Of a stretch of 20,246 nucleotides of DNA, positions 7,038-16,882 are shown piece by piece. The notes under the pieces were generated by a model. It searched no databases. It was given only the letters and a program-made list of their open reading frames with translations, and was not told where the DNA came from. Source of the stretch: a virus. Every line of letters begins with the position of its first letter. Position 1 is the first letter of the stretch. The stretch is from IMG/VR virus record IMGVR_UViG_3300044701_002379, positions 1 through 20,246 of that record; one strand, written 5' to 3'. The position numbers and the translations under genes were made by a program.

Positions 7038-8300
7038 TTATTCAGTCAAAATAAAGGCGTTGATTGATTTGGCGTTGCCGATGGCGACTGACTCATAACC
7101 GCCCTCAATGGCGTTGGCAAAGTCGGCATCGGATGGCAGGATGTAGCCGTTATCAGCAGGCTTGACGGGCCGTGGCCATTCTTTTGGCACTTCGTCATCG
7201 AACACGACAACAGTTGTACAGCGGCAGCCCGGATGAAATGGCGGAAACTTCAGATTCTTATACGTTTCGTTTTTGCCGTTTTGGCCGAATGTGCCATCTT
7301 TGCGAATCACGGGGCATTGGCGTTTAATCGCATGACAGAGTGGGCAGGCGTCAGACGATAGAACCAACTCATAACCGGCCACGAAATCCAGGCCCCTTGT
7401 GGCCTCATATCGGCCTTGGTTGTAGGCTCTGGCTGATTCAGTGACAGCAATGCGACGGGCACGCCAGCGAGAGTTTTCATCCACCCATCGAGATACCCGG
7501 TCAACCGTATCGCCAAGCGTTTCGCCGGTTCTGATCGATTCGGCAATATCCTCACGAATCCCGTCAAGTGTCGTATTGAGATCGAAAATAAACTGGTTTG
7601 TCGTCTCTTGGCACAAATCCAGCGTAGCCGTTCGTGCCGCATCAATGACATGCGGAGCTTTCACCAGCCAATCGTCTGCGTCCTGCTGGTCAAGCTCTAC
7701 CAATGCCGCCCGGCCTGATTCGTCGATGTATGACGTAATCGTCGGGATAAATCGGTTGCCCATCTCGATACTGCCAGCAAACGGGTCGAGCGGATTAAAT
7801 TCTTTGGCCTTTGGTGGCTCGATAAACCGCCGCCATGTTTCAATCTGTTGTTTGCCGATTGCCAGCAGAATCGACCGGGCCGCACGGTAAAGCGGTTCAC
7901 CGTCCGGCATCGCGTCCAGCAGTTGTTTCGGTGTCTGGCGTGCTTTGACTGATTCACCACGGGCACGCTTGATGGTTTTGGCTTTGGCGTCTGCCCACGT
8001 TTTGCCCGCATCGCCGCCCCATGCCGCCCATGCCACTCTGCCGGGGCTTGGATAGCCTGCTTCGCCAGGTCGAAAGCCGGTGGCCCGCTTGTCAACCTCA
8101 TGGCGTGCGAACCATGCCGACATGGTGATGACCACATCTGGCGACAATTCGCCTGCTGACAGGATCTGGTCGGCCCGCCGCCGTGCGGTGTCGGTTCCAC
8201 CACGGCGACCGTCGGCCTTCCATTTCCGGTATCGTTCAGCCTCGGCCCGCATCCCCTCAGTGGGTGTCAGGTCGATTGTTTTGCCGTTTACGTTTGCCAA
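7038..8300 (-). CDS. MuF-type minor head protein with an N-terminal RHE/WGGD domain
   Basis: This 420-residue protein has two modules. Residues 10-110 carry a domain I know from phage head-region proteins, with RRGGTDTARRRADQI, MSAWFARHEVD and YPSPGRVAWAAWGGDAG. The C-terminal half is the SPP1 gp7/Mu F head-morphogenesis module: helical, ending in a metal-binding-type pattern, SSDACPLCHAIKRQC then FHPGCRCTTVVVF. Such proteins sit inside the head near the portal and help assembly and DNA ejection. The frame opens at a TTG directly after the upstream gene's TAG stop and has no Shine-Dalgarno; an ATG at residue 17 (8252) is an alternative, though its GAGGGG is too close. Because both genes share one frame, amber read-through is also possible. 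Confidence 0.85.
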   Translation of the reverse strand: MANVNGKTIDLTPTEGMRAEAERYRKWKADGRRGGTDTARRRADQILSAGELSPDVVITMSAWFARHEVDKRATGFRPGEAGYPSPGRVAWAAWGGDAGKTWADAKAKTIKRARGESVKARQTPKQLLDAMPDGEPLYRAARSILLAIGKQQIETWRRFIEPPKAKEFNPLDPFAGSIEMGNRFIPTITSYIDESGRAALVELDQQDADDWLVKAPHVIDAARTATLDLCQETTNQFIFDLNTTLDGIREDIAESIRTGETLGDTVDRVSRWVDENSRWRARRIAVTESARAYNQGRYEATRGLDFVAGYELVLSSDACPLCHAIKRQCPVIRKDGTFGQNGKNETYKNLKFPPFHPGCRCTTVVVFDDEVPKEWPRPVKPADNGYILPSDADFANAIEGGYESVAIGNAKSINAFILTE

Positions 8301-9119: not shown

Positions 9120-9350
9120 TTACTTGGCTTTTTCGGCCTGTTGCATCTTGCGATAAGCAATAACGGCCTGAATCACTGCGGCAATGCCGATCAGGATTTG
9201 CGGAATGAGTCTGACAAACAGGTGCATGATAGATTCCTCAACTGGATGATTAACGACATAAGCCGCCCCCCAGATAGAACCTACGCCGTAAAGAGCAGAC
9301 TGGAGAAGTGACATCCCCGGCCCGGTGTCGTCTGTTGTTGCATCTTGCAT
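9120..9350 (-). CDS. Small membrane protein, holin-like candidate
   Basis: This 76-residue protein has two hydrophobic segments, about residues 14-33 (SLLQSALYGVGSIWGAAYVV) and 43-65 (LFVRLIPQILIGIAAVIQAV), and a charged C-terminal tail (YRKMQQAEKAK). Two transmembrane helices with a basic tail and small size fit class II-type phage holins. It starts at ATG with AAAGG nine bases upstream, four bases after the preceding small membrane gene. No endolysin gene is adjacent, so a lysis role is not confirmed; a head or tail-tip membrane-interacting protein is an alternative. Confidence 0.5.
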   Translation of the reverse strand: MQDATTDDTGPGMSLLQSALYGVGSIWGAAYVVNHPVEESIMHLFVRLIPQILIGIAAVIQAVIAYRKMQQAEKAK

Positions 9351-9354
9351 CAGT

Positions 9355-9564
9355 TCAGACCTTTATTTCTTTGCCTGACTTGAGAAACGAGATCGCTTGG
9401 CTAATGACAATGGCCAGCACCACGCCCGCCGGGGTTGTGGCTTCCACAATGGCGGGTAGATCGGCCTCAACGACAATCAGAATTGCCAGCAGGCCAGCAA
9501 GGGCGGCCCGCTTGACCGTTTTGCTGATCTGCTGCTTATTGATCTGCCCTACGATATCTGTCAT
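9355..9564 (-). CDS. Small two-helix membrane protein, holin-like candidate
   Basis: This 69-residue protein has a charged N-terminus (NKQQISKTVKR), a hydrophobic helix at about 20-37 (AALAGLLAILIVV), a short turn containing Glu and Pro, a second hydrophobic helix at about 45-61 (TPAGVVLAIVISQAISFL) and a basic tail (KSGKEIKV). This layout fits a phage holin. Its ATG overlaps by four bases the stop of the upstream 41-residue microgene (ATGA). With the next membrane gene it forms a tandem pair, reminiscent of holin/antiholin pairs, but that is inference. Confidence 0.55.
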   Translation of the reverse strand: MTDIVGQINKQQISKTVKRAALAGLLAILIVVEADLPAIVEATTPAGVVLAIVISQAISFLKSGKEIKV

Positions 9565-9686
9565 TTCTGGCCCCCCAGCTTAATGCCGCGTTTCTTGAGT
9601 TCGGCCACAATCTGCTCAAACGTCAGGCCCTGAGCTTTCAACTGCTCGACCAGTTCACGGGGTGATTGGCTTGGTTGATCGCTCAT
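9561..9686 (-). CDS. Microprotein, 41 aa, paralogue of the one at 11768-11887
   Basis: This short gene fills the gap between two annotated genes exactly. Its ATG overlaps the stop of the upstream chimeric gene, and its TGA overlaps the ATG of the downstream membrane gene. The product has a short N-terminal polar part, then a helix (SPRELVEQLKAQG), a turn, a second helix (TFEQIVAELKKRG) and the ending GIKLGGQK. The paralogue near 11800 shares QLKAQG, TFEQI, EL.KRGIKLGGQK and a 31-base DNA block with one mismatch. Two helices and a conserved C-terminus suggest a genuine small folded or helix-hairpin protein, possibly DNA- or protein-binding. The double coupling and the independent paralogue make it a real gene. 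Confidence 0.75.
   Translation of the reverse strand: MSDQPSQSPRELVEQLKAQGLTFEQIVAELKKRGIKLGGQK
9563..9593 (-). repeat. Direct repeat, copy B (31 bp)
   Basis: A 31-base block covering the 3' end of the 41-residue microgene matches the block at 11770-11800 at 30 of 31 positions, in the same orientation. Weaker similarity extends further into both microgenes. The two copies bracket a roughly 2.2-kb segment with three adhesin-related genes. Confidence 0.85.
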
Positions 9687-10240
9687 GATGGCCACACAAG
9701 TACAGGCAGTTCACTAATCACTTGTTCCGGCGTTGGCACGGGTCGTAAGCCAGCCGCAACATCGGCCTGAATCTGATAGGCCACAAGCCAGCACTGATCA
9801 CGCCAAGCGAAGAATGCTGCGTGTTCTGCCGCCCATTTTGGTACATTTGAGCCTTTATATGTGTCGATGGTCAGCAGACTGTCATATTCTCGCTGTCTGG
9901 CAATCGTGTCGAAATGGGCCTTGATGGCATCTGACGTGACGGCAACAGACCCTGCCGGTGTCAGCTTCCATCGGCATGTCTGCTGGTCAAGCGTGTAATA
10001 TTCATCAGGCCCCGGCTTGGGCGGAATGAAAGCGTCAAGGGCCGCGCTGTATTTATAGCCGATTCCCGCGTAATTCTTGCGGAATGATCCGTCCAGTGTG
10101 GTTCGCTTGCATGGAATGCCACGAACTTCGCTGTAATAAGTCTCCCAGTTAGTTGTTGAGCCTGCCTGCTGCACGCCCGCAATAACTTCAATCACGGTGT
10201 TTGACTGGTCAAGGAATGCGTAATAATCGACGTTGTTCAT
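9683..10240 (-). CDS. Fibre-associated chimeric protein (aquatic-phage domain plus tail-fibre C-terminus)
   Basis: The 185-residue protein has two halves. Residues 1-90 carry the pattern NWETYYSEVRGIPCKRTTLD, FRKNYAGIGYKYSAALDAFI, PPKPGPDEYYTLDQQTCRWK, a repeat type I associate with structural proteins of aquatic phages such as cyanophages. The remainder (YKGSNVPKWAAEHAAFFAWR and PEQVISELPVLVWPS) resembles the C-terminal region of tail-fibre-associated proteins. No membrane segment or signal is visible. Its start overlaps the polyglycine adhesin stop (ATGA) and its stop overlaps a microgene ATG. It probably serves as a fibre-tip, fibre-assembly or adhesin-associated protein. Confidence 0.6.
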   Translation of the reverse strand: MNNVDYYAFLDQSNTVIEVIAGVQQAGSTTNWETYYSEVRGIPCKRTTLDGSFRKNYAGIGYKYSAALDAFIPPKPGPDEYYTLDQQTCRWKLTPAGSVAVTSDAIKAHFDTIARQREYDSLLTIDTYKGSNVPKWAAEHAAFFAWRDQCWLVAYQIQADVAAGLRPVPTPEQVISELPVLVWPS

Positions 10241-11244
10241 GAAAAACTGATATTCCCTGTTCCTGCCGTAAATGAAACGACTTTGTTTGCCCCGACAGTT
10301 GTATTGCTGTAAGTCAATCCGGCTGCAATCGTGATGTTATTGGTTGACGGAAAGCGGACGATCACAATACCACTGCCGCCGTTTCCGGCAGTGGTTGCAT
10401 TCTGGCCGCCAGATCCACCACCGCCGCCGCCTGTGTTGGCTGTGCCATTGGCTCCGGCAGAATTAACGGCTCCGCCCGCACCACCGCCGCCAGATCCACC
10501 AGTGCCAGCAGTTCCCGCGTATGCGCCACCACCACCACCGCCCGCATAAGTTGTCGGCGTGCCAGTGATGTTTGAACTGGTGCCGTTGCCGCCAAAGCCG
10601 TTAACGGTGCCAGAACCTGCTCCACCCGCTTGTGACGAGCCACCACCGCCACCAGGCCCATAGACCGAAGCTGTATTACTACCCTGACCCCCAGAATTAC
10701 CTTGTCCAGAGGTTCCGCTGCCGGGAACACCCGCTTTAGAACTGCCGCCACCTGAGCCGCCCGAAAGACCGTTAAACGGGTTTTGATTGCCACCGCTTCC
10801 GCTGGCAGGCGCACCGCCACCACCACCGCCAATGGCTGTAAGATTGCTGAATGTGGAGTTTGAGCCGTTTGCGCCTTGGTTTGCGGCACCTGATGCGCCG
10901 CCAGCACCACCACCACCAACAGTCAGAGAGTAGTTTACGCTAAGATTGACTGACCGAGATCCAGACAATAAACCGCCAGCACCGCCACCACCACCGCCAC
11001 CATCGTTTGTCTGATGGTTCCCACCGCCACCGCCACCGCCAACGACCAAATAATCTACTGAAATAGTTGGATAATTGATCGTGCCATTCCAATTGACAAT
11101 ATAGCCGGTGTCACTCGTTTTACTGTAGATGATCCCATCTTTGGTATTGATGGCAATCTCGCCGTTTGTCAGATTACCAGCGACCGGGGCCGCTCCGGCA
11201 GTGCCGTTGCTTTTTAGAACGATTGTGCCGTTAAACGTGGGCAT
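10237..11244 (-). CDS. Polyglycine-rich receptor-binding adhesin candidate
   Basis: The 335-residue protein starts with a short trimeric-fibre-like attachment segment (GNLTNGEIAINTKDGIIYSK). It then has a long, extremely Gly-rich body (about residues 70-300) with many runs of 4-7 Gly separated by Ala, Ser, Asn and short hydrophobic steps. It ends in GGSGIVIVRFP and a beta-type tail. Such bodies are known from tip adhesins of T-even-like phages, where polyglycine II helices form a sandwich that carries variable receptor-contacting loops. The N-terminal segment matches virion fibre proteins, and the next gene codes for a fibre-associated protein. Read in another frame, the gene gives a long Val/Ala shadow ORF, a result of its skewed composition. 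The role in host binding is inferred. Confidence 0.7.
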   Translation of the reverse strand: MPTFNGTIVLKSNGTAGAAPVAGNLTNGEIAINTKDGIIYSKTSDTGYIVNWNGTINYPTISVDYLVVGGGGGGGNHQTNDGGGGGGGAGGLLSGSRSVNLSVNYSLTVGGGGAGGASGAANQGANGSNSTFSNLTAIGGGGGGAPASGSGGNQNPFNGLSGGSGGGSSKAGVPGSGTSGQGNSGGQGSNTASVYGPGGGGGSSQAGGAGSGTVNGFGGNGTSSNITGTPTTYAGGGGGGAYAGTAGTGGSGGGGAGGAVNSAGANGTANTGGGGGGSGGQNATTAGNGGSGIVIVRFPSTNNITIAAGLTYSNTTVGANKVVSFTAGTGNISFS

Positions 11245-11768
11245 CAGTATGACCCCCCGTTCAAGGTATCACCATTGGTAAAACCAGCCGCCGGAATGCT
11301 TGCCGATAGTGTGCCGTTAGATATGGTCAGGTTCGATCCTACTTTGATCGCTCCGAGCGATGTATTCGTGGCTGTCGGGATTGTTCCGCCGATATTGGCA
11401 TAAGTGAAATTGGCGGAAGGCAGATAGGCGGTCAGATTGGCGGGCGTTACATAGCGTCCATCGCCCCGGCCTTGTGTTAGTATCGAATCAGTACCCCAGA
11501 CTGTGACATTTGAGAGAGTGGCGTTATTGGCTGAAAGGGCCAGATTGCCCTTATTAACGACTATCTCAGAGTAGTTGGCCCCGGCATCGTCTGACGAATA
11601 GAAGCCGATCTGAGTCGCAATGTCCACAACTCGCACTTGCCCGGTTAGCGGGTCAATCGTTCCAGTCGGATCATTGATCTGGTAGTATTCAAACGCCCCA
11701 ATGCAGTGAACACCGTTGCCGGTGTAGTTGCTGACGTAGCCCTTATGTTTTGAAGATGAAAACGGCAT
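11244..11768 (-). CDS. Tail-fibre-like structural protein
   Basis: The 174-residue protein is poor in charged residues and rich in Asn, Thr, Ser and Gly. It has two fibre-type features. GRGDGRYVTPANLTAYLP matches the D.RY.T..NL linker of phage fibres. A segment near the C-terminus (SLGAIKVGSNLTISNGTLSA) is of the kind that follows a linker in trimeric fibres and recurs in the upstream fibre gene. It overlaps the polyglycine gene by one base and the upstream microgene by one base. It is probably a short connecting or side fibre; the order suggests it links the virion attachment point to the polyglycine adhesin, which is inference. Confidence 0.65.
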   Translation of the reverse strand: MPFSSSKHKGYVSNYTGNGVHCIGAFEYYQINDPTGTIDPLTGQVRVVDIATQIGFYSSDDAGANYSEIVVNKGNLALSANNATLSNVTVWGTDSILTQGRGDGRYVTPANLTAYLPSANFTYANIGGTIPTATNTSLGAIKVGSNLTISNGTLSASIPAAGFTNGDTLNGGSY

Positions 11769-11887
11769 TATTTCTGGCCTCCCAGCTTAATGCCGCGTTT
11801 TTGCAGTTCGATCATGATCTGCTCAAAAGTCATGCCCTGAGCCTTTAGCTGATCGATCAGTTCTTTTGTCGTTTGCGGTTGACTCAT
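11768..11887 (-). CDS. Microprotein, 39 aa, paralogue of the one at 9561-9686
   Basis: This short gene fills the gap between two fibre genes. ATG lies two bases after the upstream fibre stop, and its TAA overlaps the next ATG by one base (TAATG). The product reads as two helices (TTKELIDQLKAQG and TFEQIMIELQKRG) with the same ending GIKLGGQK as the other copy. Identity between the two is about two thirds and concentrated after residue 12. Conservation at protein level, with silent differences in the first two thirds of the DNA, argues that both copies are under selection. Function unknown. Confidence 0.75.
   Translation of the reverse strand: MSQPQTTKELIDQLKAQGMTFEQIMIELQKRGIKLGGQK
11770..11800 (-). 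repeat. Direct repeat, copy A (31 bp)
   Basis: Partner of the block at 9563-9593, same orientation, one mismatch in 31 bases. It lies at the 3' end of the 39-residue microgene. The distance of about 2.2 kb encloses two fibre genes and a fibre-associated gene. Confidence 0.85.
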
Positions 11888-11889
11888 AA

Positions 11890-12729
11890 TTAATTCACCC
11901 GCCGGATCGGTTGATAAAGCCTATCGGCAGCACCTTTGGTTAATAGCTCAAAGAAGCCCGGCGAGATGTTATTGATACCTTGTGCAACGCTGTAAAAGAA
12001 CACGCCATCGGCGGCTGTCATTTCAAAGCTGGTGAACTGCGTGGATGTAGTCAGCCCGAAAGTCAATCCTGCTGAAGAGGTGAAAAAGTAAATATCACTA
12101 ACAAGTGATACATTTGCGGTCCATGTTGTAACCGAAAAGTTTACCCCATAATCCAAATAAAGTGCCGTTTGTGATTCAGTCCCGTTGGTGTTTTTATGCC
12201 ATTTCGCAATGTAAGGATTTCCACCAAAGCCACCACCATACCTTAATCCAATAAAATTAATATGGGTGCCATTTCCTAGCCCATAGTTATTTGGGGTTGA
12301 AATTGTCTGATTGCTAATTATGCCATATAAGGGAGCGGTTGCATTTCCAACAGGCCCAATTTCTCTGATTGGCAGTGGAACAAGGCCGTCGCCTAAATTT
12401 ATGAAGTTCTGGCTTGATTCTTTGGCGTACAAATCATTGGCGATAGTTGTTACATCATTCGCCGTAAGCGTCACATTGCCCGTACGATTGTTGAACGTGC
12501 TGACACCGCCCGCCTGAGCCGACAACAGGCCATTTGCGTTGATCGTCAGATTGTCGCCAACGATGATGCCGCCCAATGTGTTTGCGGTGGCAGGTGGCAG
12601 AACATAGCTGTTGCCGGTCGTCTGTACGACCACCGTGTTATTCGGCTGTTGCCGCACCAGCACCTGATTGCTTGATGCCTGAATTGTCAGGCTGGTGCTG
12701 TTCGCTTGTCTAACGATGATATCAGCCAT
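11890..12729 (-). CDS. Tail-fibre protein
   Basis: The 279-residue protein is a fibre by composition and motifs: a short N-terminal attachment segment rich in Gln and Asn (RQANSTSLTIQASSNQVLVR), then the linker ATANTLGGIIVGDNLTINAN, then GGVSTFNNRTGNVTLTANDV, a repeat found in many phage fibres. After about residue 120 the sequence changes to an aromatic-containing part (INFIGLRYGGGFGGNPYIAK and later FFELL) that may be a tip or lectin-type domain. The DNA for that part (about 12060-12480) is visibly more A/T-rich than its neighbours, consistent with a separately acquired tip. It overlaps the upstream gene by one base. Confidence 0.72.
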   Translation of the reverse strand: MADIIVRQANSTSLTIQASSNQVLVRQQPNNTVVVQTTGNSYVLPPATANTLGGIIVGDNLTINANGLLSAQAGGVSTFNNRTGNVTLTANDVTTIANDLYAKESSQNFINLGDGLVPLPIREIGPVGNATAPLYGIISNQTISTPNNYGLGNGTHINFIGLRYGGGFGGNPYIAKWHKNTNGTESQTALYLDYGVNFSVTTWTANVSLVSDIYFFTSSAGLTFGLTTSTQFTSFEMTAADGVFFYSVAQGINNISPGFFELLTKGAADRLYQPIRRVN

Positions 12730-13079
12730 TATCGCGTGACTTCCGGCGTGACAGTGAGCGTGCCATAAAGCAGCCGATCAACCGTGGTGTCAGGCTTGAC
12801 CAGTTCAAGATCATAAACGTAACTGCCAGCGGTCAGATTAGCCGTTTGGGCGGCTGTCTGCTGCAAGGTAAAAGTGCCGTTGGCGGCTGATGTGATCGTA
12901 ATGTTGCCGTTGGTGGTCGACAGGTCAAGTGTCGTATTGGCGGTATAGGCTGGCCGGGCCTGCATGCGGATCGTATAACCCGACAGGCTGATATTCGTCC
13001 CGTTAGCCGTTTGATACTGGATCGACTGCGACCAGGTGGCCCCTTGCTCTATTGTCAGGTTGCAATTCCCGGCAGGCAT
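12729..13079 (-). CDS. Ig-like phage structural protein next to the portal
   Basis: The 116-residue beta-rich protein reads as a single Ig-like or small beta domain: IEQGATWSQSIQYQ, a turn with SGYTIRMQARPAYTANTTLD, the strand TITSAANGTFTLQQTAAQTA and the conserved-type YVYDLELVKPDTTVDRLLYG then TLTVTPEVTR. I know this pattern (G.T....dLtG...r...R, then YDLEL......RLL.G.....PEVTR) from phage proteins encoded beside structural genes, where it is thought to decorate the virion or attach fibres. It overlaps the portal stop by one base and the fibre ATG by one base. It likely begins the adhesin block by joining a fibre to the virion; that part is inference. Confidence 0.6.
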   Translation of the reverse strand: MPAGNCNLTIEQGATWSQSIQYQTANGTNISLSGYTIRMQARPAYTANTTLDLSTTNGNITITSAANGTFTLQQTAAQTANLTAGSYVYDLELVKPDTTVDRLLYGTLTVTPEVTR

Positions 13080-14377
13080 TATTCAGCCTCACCTTCTGCA
13101 ACATCTTCTGCCGCTTCGGCTGGCGTGTCCTGTGATTCAATTTCGGCATAGCCCATGATCTGCCGTGCCTCATTGAGCGACAACAGGCCGGATTGATACA
13201 AGGCCACGGCTCGATCTGACAAGGCTTTCGTATCTGCGGCTAACTCTTCAATCTGACTGGTATCAAACCTGACAGTTAGCATGCTATCAGGCTGAGCAAT
13301 CGCGCCGTCATAGCCGGTGGGAAGCGTTCGCACCAGCCTTGTAAGCTGCATTGAAAGCAGTTCCAAGAATGGAATAATCGCGTCCCTCCAGCTTGCCCGA
13401 TTGGCTTCAATCAGGTTGCTGTATGTTTTGCCCGTGTCGGGTTGTTTCAGCGACATTGGCGACCAGCCCAAGACACCGCAGACACGGGCCACTGCAATTT
13501 CGGTCATCTCTTGAACGGATAAATCTTTCGGGCTGAATCCCGGCGTTTTGATGTCAAGCTCGCCACCCTTGAAGATCAATGGCCTGCCGACGCCCTTGCC
13601 AGACACAGCCCGCTTGATGTCAGACTGAAGTACCGCGATATTGTCAGATGTCATCATCTGCGCCCCGGTGCCGGTCAGACTGACCAGCCAAGAAGGGACA
13701 CCCGATCGGCTCAAGATGGTTGTTTCATAGATTGCAGTCAGCTTGATCAGTGCCAACTCTGCCCGCACTGCCTCAAGCGGCGAACGGCCCCTTGCGGCTG
13801 TGGTCGATGACTTGCCGACCCGGAAATGCAGCATCCGCATGCGAGGTGTCGTGAACTGGAAGCCCCGCCCACCATCGAAGCCGACAAAGGGATATTCGGT
13901 GATTTCACCGATGGCCTGCCCGTATTTCGGCACTTGAAGCCAACTGTAGGGGATTGGCTGAAGTTCTCTGATCGTGCCACCCGTCTGGGTGTCTCTGTCA
14001 GAGATGGCAGGTACGTAGGCGTTGCCATCCTCCAAAAGCTGTTGATAGATAAATTCAACCAGCGTGCTTTCAGTCTCACCTGGTGCCGGTTCTTTCCAGA
14101 TCTGGATTAATGGATGGTCAACCGGCTCAAATCCGCCTTCCTCATCAAAGTAGCCGACCTGCAATATGGCCTTGCTGACGTTCCGCCGCATGGCTTCAAT
14201 CGCGGCACGAATGACGGGGTTGTCACAATACGGTCTGGCAAGATTGGCGTAATCGTCGCTTAACGCGTTGATCACATCGACTGACCATGCCGATACGTCG
14301 ATCTCAGTAGAATCAGCGGTAACGCCCGTGCGAAGTGCTTTCGAGCGGAGCCAGTTGAGTGGGTTGTAATCAGGCAT
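13079..14377 (-). CDS. Portal protein, HK97 family
   Basis: The 432-residue protein contains the portal pattern: a helix-rich wing start (NPVIRAAIEAMRRNVSKAIL), HPLIQIWKEPAP.E, LLEDGNAYVPAISD, then the clip/stem region (IAVARVCGVLGWSPMSLKQP) and a C-terminal TYSNLIEANRASWRDAIIPF stretch, typical of HK97-type portals (Phage_portal). The dodecameric portal ring forms the packaging vertex and links to the terminase upstream and the connector proteins. Its start overlaps the methyltransferase stop by eight bases. The end (about residues 410-432) is very acidic, a usual variable tail. Length is normal for the family. Confidence 0.92.
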   Translation of the reverse strand: MPDYNPLNWLRSKALRTGVTADSTEIDVSAWSVDVINALSDDYANLARPYCDNPVIRAAIEAMRRNVSKAILQVGYFDEEGGFEPVDHPLIQIWKEPAPGETESTLVEFIYQQLLEDGNAYVPAISDRDTQTGGTIRELQPIPYSWLQVPKYGQAIGEITEYPFVGFDGGRGFQFTTPRMRMLHFRVGKSSTTAARGRSPLEAVRAELALIKLTAIYETTILSRSGVPSWLVSLTGTGAQMMTSDNIAVLQSDIKRAVSGKGVGRPLIFKGGELDIKTPGFSPKDLSVQEMTEIAVARVCGVLGWSPMSLKQPDTGKTYSNLIEANRASWRDAIIPFLELLSMQLTRLVRTLPTGYDGAIAQPDSMLTVRFDTSQIEELAADTKALSDRAVALYQSGLLSLNEARQIMGYAEIESQDTPAEAAEDVAEGEAE

Positions 14378-15539
14378 TTGTAAATAGCGGTGCTTTATTT
14401 AATTCGTTTTCAATGCGTTTTCGTGCGATTTCAGCGTATTCAGGATTCAATTCAATGCCGATGAATTTAAACCCTTCACGCAAGGCTGCAACACCCGTTG
14501 AGCCGCTGCCCATAAACGGGTCAAGTATGGTGCCGCCCGGCGGTGTAATGAGTCGGCAGAGATAGGCCATTAAATCGATAGGTTTAACGGTCGGGTGGTG
14601 GTTCGTTCGTGGCCCTGATTCGGCTGTTGGTGGCCGCTCGCCATTCGTTACCCGATAATCTTGATCAGTCCATTTATTGCCATTAACACGATGGATTGAT
14701 TCCATCCCATCTAATCCCGCTTCCCGCTCTGCCTTGCTTGCTTTCGGGCAGTAGAAGAAACGGGCGGCGGAACCTACTAAATCTGTCACCTCATCGCTGC
14801 CATCGTGGATGAAATTGGCAGGCCAGCGGCCGGCGGCCGGGGTGACATTTCCGCCATTGCCTACACTGTTACTGATACACCAACCAGCAGGTGAACCGCT
14901 TCCAGTTGGAGATTTTTCGTTTCCAATCTCCACCCTACACCCATCGATATTCAGCCCGCCCGTTCCGTGTTCGAGTACGTTCGCTGCGACTGTGCCAGTG
15001 AGCGGTTTGCGGGCCATTGTGATCGGCTCCAGGGCGGGCTTCAGCGCAGTGCCCCAGCCGGCCCACTGCTGGGCTTCGGGGGTGGCGGGGGCGGTAAGCG
15101 GATCTCCGTCTTTATTTGTGTTGAGCCCAATACACGCGATATTGCCCGCACACCGGCCTTTGTTGTCTTTCGTGCCCACCACCTCCCGCTCAGCCCCTGC
15201 CGCCTTGTCAATCGCCTTGCTCACGTCCAGCGACTTCGGAAACCCCGACCCGTAAACCCATGCGATCATGTCCCGGATCTCAAAGCCCGCATCCTCAATC
15301 CGCACCGCCATGCGGTGTTGCGTTCGCGTACCGGCAAATGCCAGCAAATGTCCACCCGGTTTCAGTACCCGCAAACACTCCTGCCAGATGTCAGTTGACG
15401 GGACATCGTAGTCCCACTTTTTATTCATGAAAGCAAGCCCATACGGCGGATCGGTCACAATCGCATCGATTGATTCAGCGTCTAATGTCTTGAGAACGTC
15501 CAGACAATCGCCGGTATGCAGGCTGTAGGGTTGCGTCAT
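14370..15539 (-). CDS. DNA methyltransferase (beta-type, N6-adenine or N4-cytosine)
   Basis: The 389-residue enzyme transfers a methyl group from S-adenosylmethionine to a DNA base. It has the catalytic motif DPPYG at residues 30-34. The S-adenosylmethionine-binding motif DPFMGSGSTG lies near the end (340-349), preceded by HPTVKPIDLM (motif X). Catalytic motif first and binding motif last defines the beta class. DPPY favours adenine methylation. The region between (about 100-310) is the variable target-recognition domain. I start at ATG 15539 because it overlaps the terminase stop (ATGA); a GTG three codons earlier has no ribosome binding site. No cognate restriction gene is nearby, so it is probably an orphan enzyme for evading host restriction. 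It interrupts the usual terminase-portal order. Confidence 0.92.
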   Translation of the reverse strand: MTQPYSLHTGDCLDVLKTLDAESIDAIVTDPPYGLAFMNKKWDYDVPSTDIWQECLRVLKPGGHLLAFAGTRTQHRMAVRIEDAGFEIRDMIAWVYGSGFPKSLDVSKAIDKAAGAEREVVGTKDNKGRCAGNIACIGLNTNKDGDPLTAPATPEAQQWAGWGTALKPALEPITMARKPLTGTVAANVLEHGTGGLNIDGCRVEIGNEKSPTGSGSPAGWCISNSVGNGGNVTPAAGRWPANFIHDGSDEVTDLVGSAARFFYCPKASKAEREAGLDGMESIHRVNGNKWTDQDYRVTNGERPPTAESGPRTNHHPTVKPIDLMAYLCRLITPPGGTILDPFMGSGSTGVAALREGFKFIGIELNPEYAEIARKRIENELNKAPLFTNA

Positions 15540-16882
15540 GAAAACCACTGAAAAGAGCCGTTTCTGCTCAGGTAGTTGAAAGCGTCGGCTGCCGCGTCCA
15601 CTTGGTCATCATGCTGGCCAGTCGGGAAGCTGCAAAGCTCATCGATGAAAGCCCTGTTCCAGTCGCCCCGCTCAAGCTCCACAAGGCCAGCCTCACAAGC
15701 TGCCGCGAACGGCATGGCCCGCACTTCTTTAGAACCTGTAGGCCGGGCTGAAACAGTCGCGAACCCTGCCAGATTAATCTTGTCCTGTTCCACCTGATCG
15801 ACACCCGCGGCACCGGGATCTTGAGCAAGGTGAACAATCGTCTGAAGCCCGTCTATCTCTGCTGTTTGTCGCTGGATGGTTCGCCGTTGGGCTGGTGACC
15901 ATTGACCTCGTACAACGTGGGAGATTCGGTATCGATCACCGATTCGGCACATTCTGACGCCGCAGGTGTAGTCGCCCGCCCCCGGCGTTGCCGCTGTATC
16001 GTAAGCGCGGCAAGCCAGCCCTGAGCTATTGCCCCCGTCAACAATAGGCAACCAATCGTGACGGAAGAAGCCACCAGATCTAGGGCTAGGTCGCTGCTGA
16101 TAGAGGGCTGAGAATGCATAAGAACCAATGGCCTTTTTAATTCTGTCAAAGTCTGCGACGTTGTAACGATCTGGCCAGAGTGCTTGCCCCGGCTCTCTGC
16201 CGAGCGTATCACCTTCTTCGGCAATCGCTGGCAGGCTCACCACGTCCCACCGTTCACCGCCGTTATTTGCTTCTTCGAGCAACTGGCCTGCAAGGTCGAG
16301 CGAGTGCCAGCGGGTCATGATCAGCACGATAGCCGCGCCGGGGTGAAGGCGGGTGTAAAGGTCGTTTTGATACCAGTCGAGAACTCTTGCCCGGTAGGTC
16401 GGTGATTCAGCCTCTTGGCGGCTCTTCACTGGGTCATCGATAACGACCAGATCGGCACCGTAGCCCGTTACACCTGACCCGACACCGACCGCATACAACC
16501 CGCCGCCGTGGATACTTGACCACTGATTCTGTTTGTTTGAATCGTTGGCAAATTGAAAACCGAACCGACTGACGAGCCGCCGTGTTTGTCGGCTGAATGT
16601 GCAGGCGAGGCTGTGATTATAGGCTCCGACAATTACCCGCATGGTTTGGTTGCGGAGTAGTCGATAGGCCGGGTAATGAATCGTTGATTGTTCGCTTTTG
16701 CCGTGCCGTGGTGGCAGGAAAAGCATCAATCGCGTAATTTCGCCGTTTGTTACTCGGTCAAGCCGATTTCGGCAGAGTTTAAGATGATTCGGATGCCACT
16801 GATGATTCGGACTGACACGCTCTAAAAACTGCCATAAACCAGCTTTAATCAAGCTGTTCCGGGGCTGGCTCAGGGTCATCAT
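15536..16882 (-). CDS. terL: Terminase large subunit
   Basis: The 448-residue DNA packaging motor has the ATPase Walker A motif LPPRHGKSE (56-64), Walker B LVVIDD (145-150), the coupling motif TRWH (190-193) and the RNase-H-type nuclease domain. The nuclease domain shows Asp295 in YDTAAT, an acidic region in AQDPGAAGVDQ (353-363) and GQHDDQVDA (422-430) with candidate acidic metal ligands. It translocates genomic DNA into the procapsid at the portal and cuts it. The start is tentatively the first ATG at 16882, which overlaps the small subunit by 38 bases; a second ATG follows at once. Its stop overlaps the methyltransferase ATG. Confidence 0.95.
   Translation of the reverse strand: MMTLSQPRNSLIKAGLWQFLERVSPNHQWHPNHLKLCRNRLDRVTNGEITRLMLFLPPRHGKSEQSTIHYPAYRLLRNQTMRVIVGAYNHSLACTFSRQTRRLVSRFGFQFANDSNKQNQWSSIHGGGLYAVGVGSGVTGYGADLVVIDDPVKSRQEAESPTYRARVLDWYQNDLYTRLHPGAAIVLIMTRWHSLDLAGQLLEEANNGGERWDVVSLPAIAEEGDTLGREPGQALWPDRYNVADFDRIKKAIGSYAFSALYQQRPSPRSGGFFRHDWLPIVDGGNSSGLACRAYDTAATPGAGDYTCGVRMCRIGDRYRISHVVRGQWSPAQRRTIQRQTAEIDGLQTIVHLAQDPGAAGVDQVEQDKINLAGFATVSARPTGSKEVRAMPFAAACEAGLVELERGDWNRAFIDELCSFPTGQHDDQVDAAADAFNYLSRNGSFQWFS

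Follow-up and report, generated by a model that had tools for sequence, protein, structure and literature searches.

Paralogous microgenes in the hypervariable adhesin operon of a group of probably temperate phages

Results

Gene content of the locus and its relatives

We analysed a 20,246-base virus record (IMGVR_UViG_3300044701_002379, positions 1 to 20,246), referred to here as the window. Its minus strand encodes, in order, a terminase, a methylase, a portal protein, an LtfC-like protein, the fibre gene fibA, the microgene micro2, the fibre gene fibB, a glycine-rich adhesin and a 185-aa protein, followed by the microgene micro1, two small membrane-protein-like genes, a Mu F-like head protein, a protease and the major capsid protein (MCP) (Table 1). 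The adhesin operon and the small membrane genes (9120-13079) are inserted after the portal and before the Mu F-like head gene, which is not where tail-fibre genes are usually located. The methylase gene (14370-15548), located between terminase and portal, also occurs in some relatives; in those without it the portal follows the terminase end immediately, making this a second presence/absence site. The Mu F-like head protein (7038-8300) has a widely shared N-terminal domain of ~130 residues, with 55-77% identity to proteins of many otherwise different viral contigs among the at least 600 matches listed, and the remainder is clade-specific.

Table 1. Features of the adhesin operon in the window
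Feature	Position	Strand	Basis or remark
LtfC-like gene	12729..13079	-	conserved upstream flank; phrog_1084; L-shaped tail fibre assembly phrog_3304
fibA, fibre gene	11890..12729	-	phrog_9625/25468, weak
Exchanged tract (fibA C-terminal part, micro2, fibB N-terminal part)	11494..12429	-	common to the window and L047
micro2, 39 aa, diverged paralogue	11768..11887	-	ORF; at the fibA/fibB stop-start junction; rare (3 contigs)
fibB, fibre gene	11244..11768	-	alignments of relatives
Glycine-rich adhesin	10237..11244	-	Pfam Gly_rich_2, E 8e-23
185-aa fibre-associated gene, by position of an assembly protein	9683..10240	-	phrog_7759, unknown function
micro1, 41 aa, core gene of the clade	9561..9686	-	ORF; ATG start
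69-aa small membrane-protein-like gene	9355..9564	-	ATGA overlap couples it to micro1; always accompanies micro1

Scans of IMG/VR yielded about 45 related viral contigs, whose structural proteins are mostly 93-100% identical to those of the window. We found no near match to the window in INPHARED, where the portal proteins of the closest cultured phages are only ~20-27% identical, and no match to the portal in the bacterial genomes searched. Given that all five long relatives (33-35 kb) encode a tyrosine recombinase, the group is probably temperate.

The two microgenes are related and micro1 is conserved

A sequence-only reading of this DNA had singled out micro1 and micro2 as paralogous genes of 41 and 39 codons bracketing two fibre-type genes and a fibre-associated gene, and this description holds up. 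Both are real open reading frames in direct orientation on the minus strand, with fibB, the glycine-rich adhesin and the 185-aa gene between them. They form a direct repeat that extends over 94 nt with 84% identity, and apart from simple repeats nothing else in the window comes close to this length; within it lie the reported 31-nt block with one mismatch, AAACGCGGCATTAAGCTGGGnGGCCAGAAAT, and a longest exact run of 20 nt. The proteins, described as about two thirds identical, share 74% of aligned residues and 70% across the last 37 (E-value 1.9e-15). As had also been observed, each end overlaps the next gene, as ATGA at micro1 and as TAATG at micro2. A GTG start for micro1 at 9695, which would extend the protein to 44 aa, was rejected as an artefact of ORF calling.

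Relatives of the microgenes were sought with DNA patterns and with a profile run over 2.16 Mb of retrieved DNA. The profile recovered 23 copies in 20 contigs, including the window, and no others; every copy sits either before the 69-aa membrane gene or between fibA and fibB. Two pattern matches in bacterial genomes were due to chance, one lying inside an unrelated protein and the other in a short non-gene frame. The microgene product has no relative at a meaningful score in Pfam, PHROGs, NCBIfam or PDB, and nothing in INPHARED scored better than E 3. A PDB profile match to TALE repeats was rejected as a summed-score artefact created by a repeated 12-residue stretch, with each single repeat at E above 400. 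The product is predicted to fold as a two-helix hairpin (pLDDT 82.5), for which Foldseek returned only unrelated helical hairpins at E above 1.

The copy before the membrane gene, micro1, was present in 20/20 contigs that hold the 5' end of the 69-aa gene and missing from the three (3/3) with a divergent membrane gene (~51% identity). It is kept when the adhesin module is swapped and is gone when the membrane gene changes. Its pN/pS is 0.067 over 13 distinct alleles. These patterns mark micro1 as a conserved protein-coding gene under strong purifying selection that is linked to the block downstream of it.

micro2 is polymorphic

The second copy occurs in three contigs, namely the window, L047 (IMGVR_UViG_3300035126_000624) and L070. 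In 25 contigs fibA and fibB are adjacent without micro2, and in four they are fused into one protein. Examples of the fusion are found in L053 (6070-7158, 362 aa) and in L062 (from 5545 onward), and the fused proteins and the window's fibB have their C-terminal sequence in common. The micro2 of the window and L047 differs from that of L070 (73% protein identity; strong divergence at silent sites, pS about 0.8), and the two forms accompany different fibA/fibB alleles at the same TAATG junction. Moreover, L044 lacks micro2 although its complete fibA is the closest to that of the window after L047. For these reasons we regard the presence of micro2 as a polymorphism, one that would have required either two or more gains or several precise losses. 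In L070 (2870-3020), micro2 is bounded by near-identical repeats of 13-14 nt, AAAAACTAATGTCA and AAAAATAATGTCA, which would permit its precise excision.

Adhesin modules are exchanged between conserved segments

Identity tracks computed across 11 relatives revealed alternating conserved and variable regions. The N-terminal ~100 codons of fibA are conserved and its C-terminal part is hypervariable; in fibB the N-terminal ~80 codons vary and the middle and 3' half are conserved. Conservation covers the N-terminal ~50 codons (40-60) of the glycine-rich adhesin and the C-terminal ~70 codons of the 185-aa gene, the rest of both being variable. Three conserved blocks emerge, from LtfC to fibA codon ~90-100, from the 3' half of fibB into the start of the glycine-rich adhesin, and from the end of the 185-aa gene across micro1 into the sequence after it. 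The centre of the proposed cassette (fibB 3' half and adhesin 5' end) ranks among the better conserved parts.

The expectation of swapped adhesin contents between conserved flanks was borne out. In L047, L064, L063, L069 and L013, an Mtd_N fibre and a different 195-aa gene replace the glycine-rich adhesin and the 185-aa gene, usually together with a laminin-G lectin (Laminin_G_3), and either downstream module is found with window-type or majority fibA, so that all four combinations occur. Both module types meet micro1 at the same base, being unrelated upstream and agreeing from TGAGCGATCAACC onward; at this joint the stop of the upstream gene is shared with the start codon as ATGA or GTGA (RTGA). 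The adhesin module is therefore exchangeable, with micro1 as its downstream border and upstream borders in fibA and fibB. A diversity-generating retroelement was considered, since relatives carry Mtd_N, and was rejected, as the reverse transcriptase family PF00078 had no match in the five long relatives. The same five genomes of 33-35 kb gave no match to the RecT or ERF families.

Comparison of the window with L047 locates the upstream borders. The two have the fibA/micro2/fibB tract in common and differ in the downstream module. From 12429 to 11518 we counted 15 mismatches in 912 positions (98.4% identity), compared with 59 of 650 (~9%) in the upstream flank from 13079 to 12430 (Fisher p 1.5e-11); downstream of the tract the sequences are unrelated, the change falling within fibB. 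The joints of the tract lie in the conserved coding segments of fibA and fibB, and micro2 is interior to it. Thus, the proposal that the microgenes are the borders of exchange stands for micro1, where a joint falls exactly at the start codon, and fails for micro2, which the comparison shows to be a diverged paralogue, carried as cargo inside the exchanged fibA/fibB tract.

The microgenes as recombination sites

It had further been proposed that the two microgenes act as direct-repeat recombination sites, allowing the cassette to be deleted or exchanged without frame damage. The orientation and the identity of the copies, the genuine swapping of modules and the joint at micro1 are in keeping with this model. 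However, it also predicts joints in micro2, fibA-micro-TM deletion products and homogenised copies, none of which was seen. The left joints are in fibA and fibB, and all contigs that span fibA to the membrane gene with micro1 (13/13) keep the whole cassette, with no deletion product among these complete spans. Single-copy variants, which should have been cassette deletions, lack micro2 alone, and fibA, fibB and the adhesins are intact in the 25 contigs concerned. The longest exact runs between the copies of the three two-copy genomes are only 20, 12 and 15 nt. Gene conversion is not evident either, as the window's own two copies differ at silent sites (0.45) about as much as micro2 differs from the micro1 of other genomes (0.49-0.57). 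Codon Arg33 is CGC in both microgenes of the window and L047 only (micro1 at 9561-9686 and L047:14078-14200, respectively) and CGT in micro1 of all others, which may be a weak hint of conversion and cannot carry the case. The repeat-mediated cassette is largely refuted, and we consider it very unlikely that the microgenes function in this way.

Signals for translational coupling

The last codons of the microgenes, for Leu-Gly-Gly-Gln-Lys, read CTG GGR GGN CAR AAA, which puts GGRGG 8-9 nt upstream of the following ATG, a start that overlaps or directly adjoins the microgene stop. The predicted anti-Shine-Dalgarno (anti-SD) duplex energy ranges from -9.3 to -10.2 kcal/mol at the membrane gene start, after micro1; before fibB it is -10.2/-10.7 with micro2 versus -5.6 to -5.9 kcal/mol without it. 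Only 9% of all ATGs on the minus strand of the window reach -7. All copies (23/23, 16 alleles) use GGA or GGG as the first codon of the Gly-Gly pair, compared with a GGR share of 23% among glycine codons in the window's genes, although the copies are related and so do not count as 23 independent events. Strong SDs also precede the LtfC, glycine-rich adhesin and MCP genes, and the feature is therefore not unique to the microgenes.

Both microgenes combine an overlapping stop and start with an SD in their own 3' end. From the strong SD and the overlap we infer that each microgene is probably a translational coupler, for the membrane gene in the case of micro1 and for fibB in that of micro2. Intragenic SDs have been found to matter for termination-reinitiation in most tested gene pairs of E. 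coli (PMC6728339). The junctions described here, ATGA and TAATG with the SD embedded in the last codons of the microgene, resemble those pairs and differ from them in that the upstream gene has only 39-41 codons and that a paralogue is placed before a second gene. In most relatives fibB lacks micro2, so a coupler is dispensable there. The tight protein conservation indicates that the peptide itself matters, which coupling leaves unexplained; besides coupling, the conserved two-helix peptide probably serves a further function.

Discussion

We propose that the hypervariable host-recognition operon of these probably temperate phages varies through ordinary mosaic exchange. Alternative fibre, adhesin and partner genes are exchanged by way of conserved coding segments (fibA codons 1-100 and the middle of fibB), with the RTGA stop-start overlap at micro1 as the one gene border also used for swapping. 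The second microgene travels as cargo inside the fibA/fibB tract, and the SD at the end of each microgene would direct ribosomes onto the gene that follows, the membrane gene after micro1 and fibB after micro2. Taken together, we consider it probable that host-recognition mosaicism by ordinary exchange, a conserved micro1, a cargo micro2 and a putative coupling role of the microgene account for the locus.

Alternatively, the microgenes may encode a small protein that works either with the membrane proteins or with each fibre unit, where it would serve as assembly factor, linker or plug, the coupling signals being only the normal load of dense phage operons. The low pN/pS, the predicted hairpin and the placement of each copy after a fibre-related gene are all consistent with such a protein. 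A fibre partner is, however, hard to reconcile with a micro1 that stays through adhesin swaps and disappears with the membrane gene, and the protein libraries offered no meaningful relative; we hold this explanation to be possible but somewhat doubtful. The two predicted helices and a weak similarity to the transcriptional-regulator family phrog_6831 (E 0.002 and 0.012) could instead point to a miniature DNA-binding regulator of the helix-turn-helix kind. Against this, there are two helices only, the best structure matches are unrelated, and the microgenes lie among late structural genes without intergenic DNA, and we consider a regulator very unlikely. The coupling idea can also be taken further, to a portable gene gained at least twice at the fibA/fibB junction that raises or balances expression of the downstream subunit. 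Here the two gains would be the different alleles of the window/L047 lineage and of L070, and we judge this extension unlikely.

Among T-even phages, hypervariable parts of adhesins lie between conserved coding segments through which their contents are exchanged. The fibre and adhesin regions described here are likewise bounded by conserved coding segments, and recombinants such as the window and L047 share one variable segment and differ in its neighbours. The genes and phages concerned differ from those of the T-even case, as does the joint at micro1, where the stop-start overlap of a separate microgene marks the border. In Alteromonas phages, host-recognition modules consisting of a fibre and its cognate chaperone are shared between distant phage families (PMC10579305). 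A fibre and its partner gene move together in both systems, but no microgene is described for the Alteromonas phages and exchange there takes place between distant families. Homology-driven mosaicism is common in temperate phages, with short mosaics bounded by partial identity and a median length of about 400-500 bp (PMC3945230). The tract reported here is likewise bounded by partial identity and measures ~0.9 kb; a difference is that the relatives showed no annealing protein of the RecT or ERF family. In itself, the exchange of adhesins seen here is of a known pattern.

The best reading of micro2 is that of an unusual clade-specific microgene, a putative coupler, beside ordinary adhesin mosaicism. 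The group constitutes a clean natural data set: its many backbones are nearly identical, the downstream adhesin module comes in two types and fibA in several alleles, and the joints are exact. The microgene family has no annotation in the protein libraries that we searched, is conserved within the clade and brings its own ribosome-binding site to each of two junctions. It would therefore provide a simple test of whether short cistrons tune the stoichiometry of fibre subunits.
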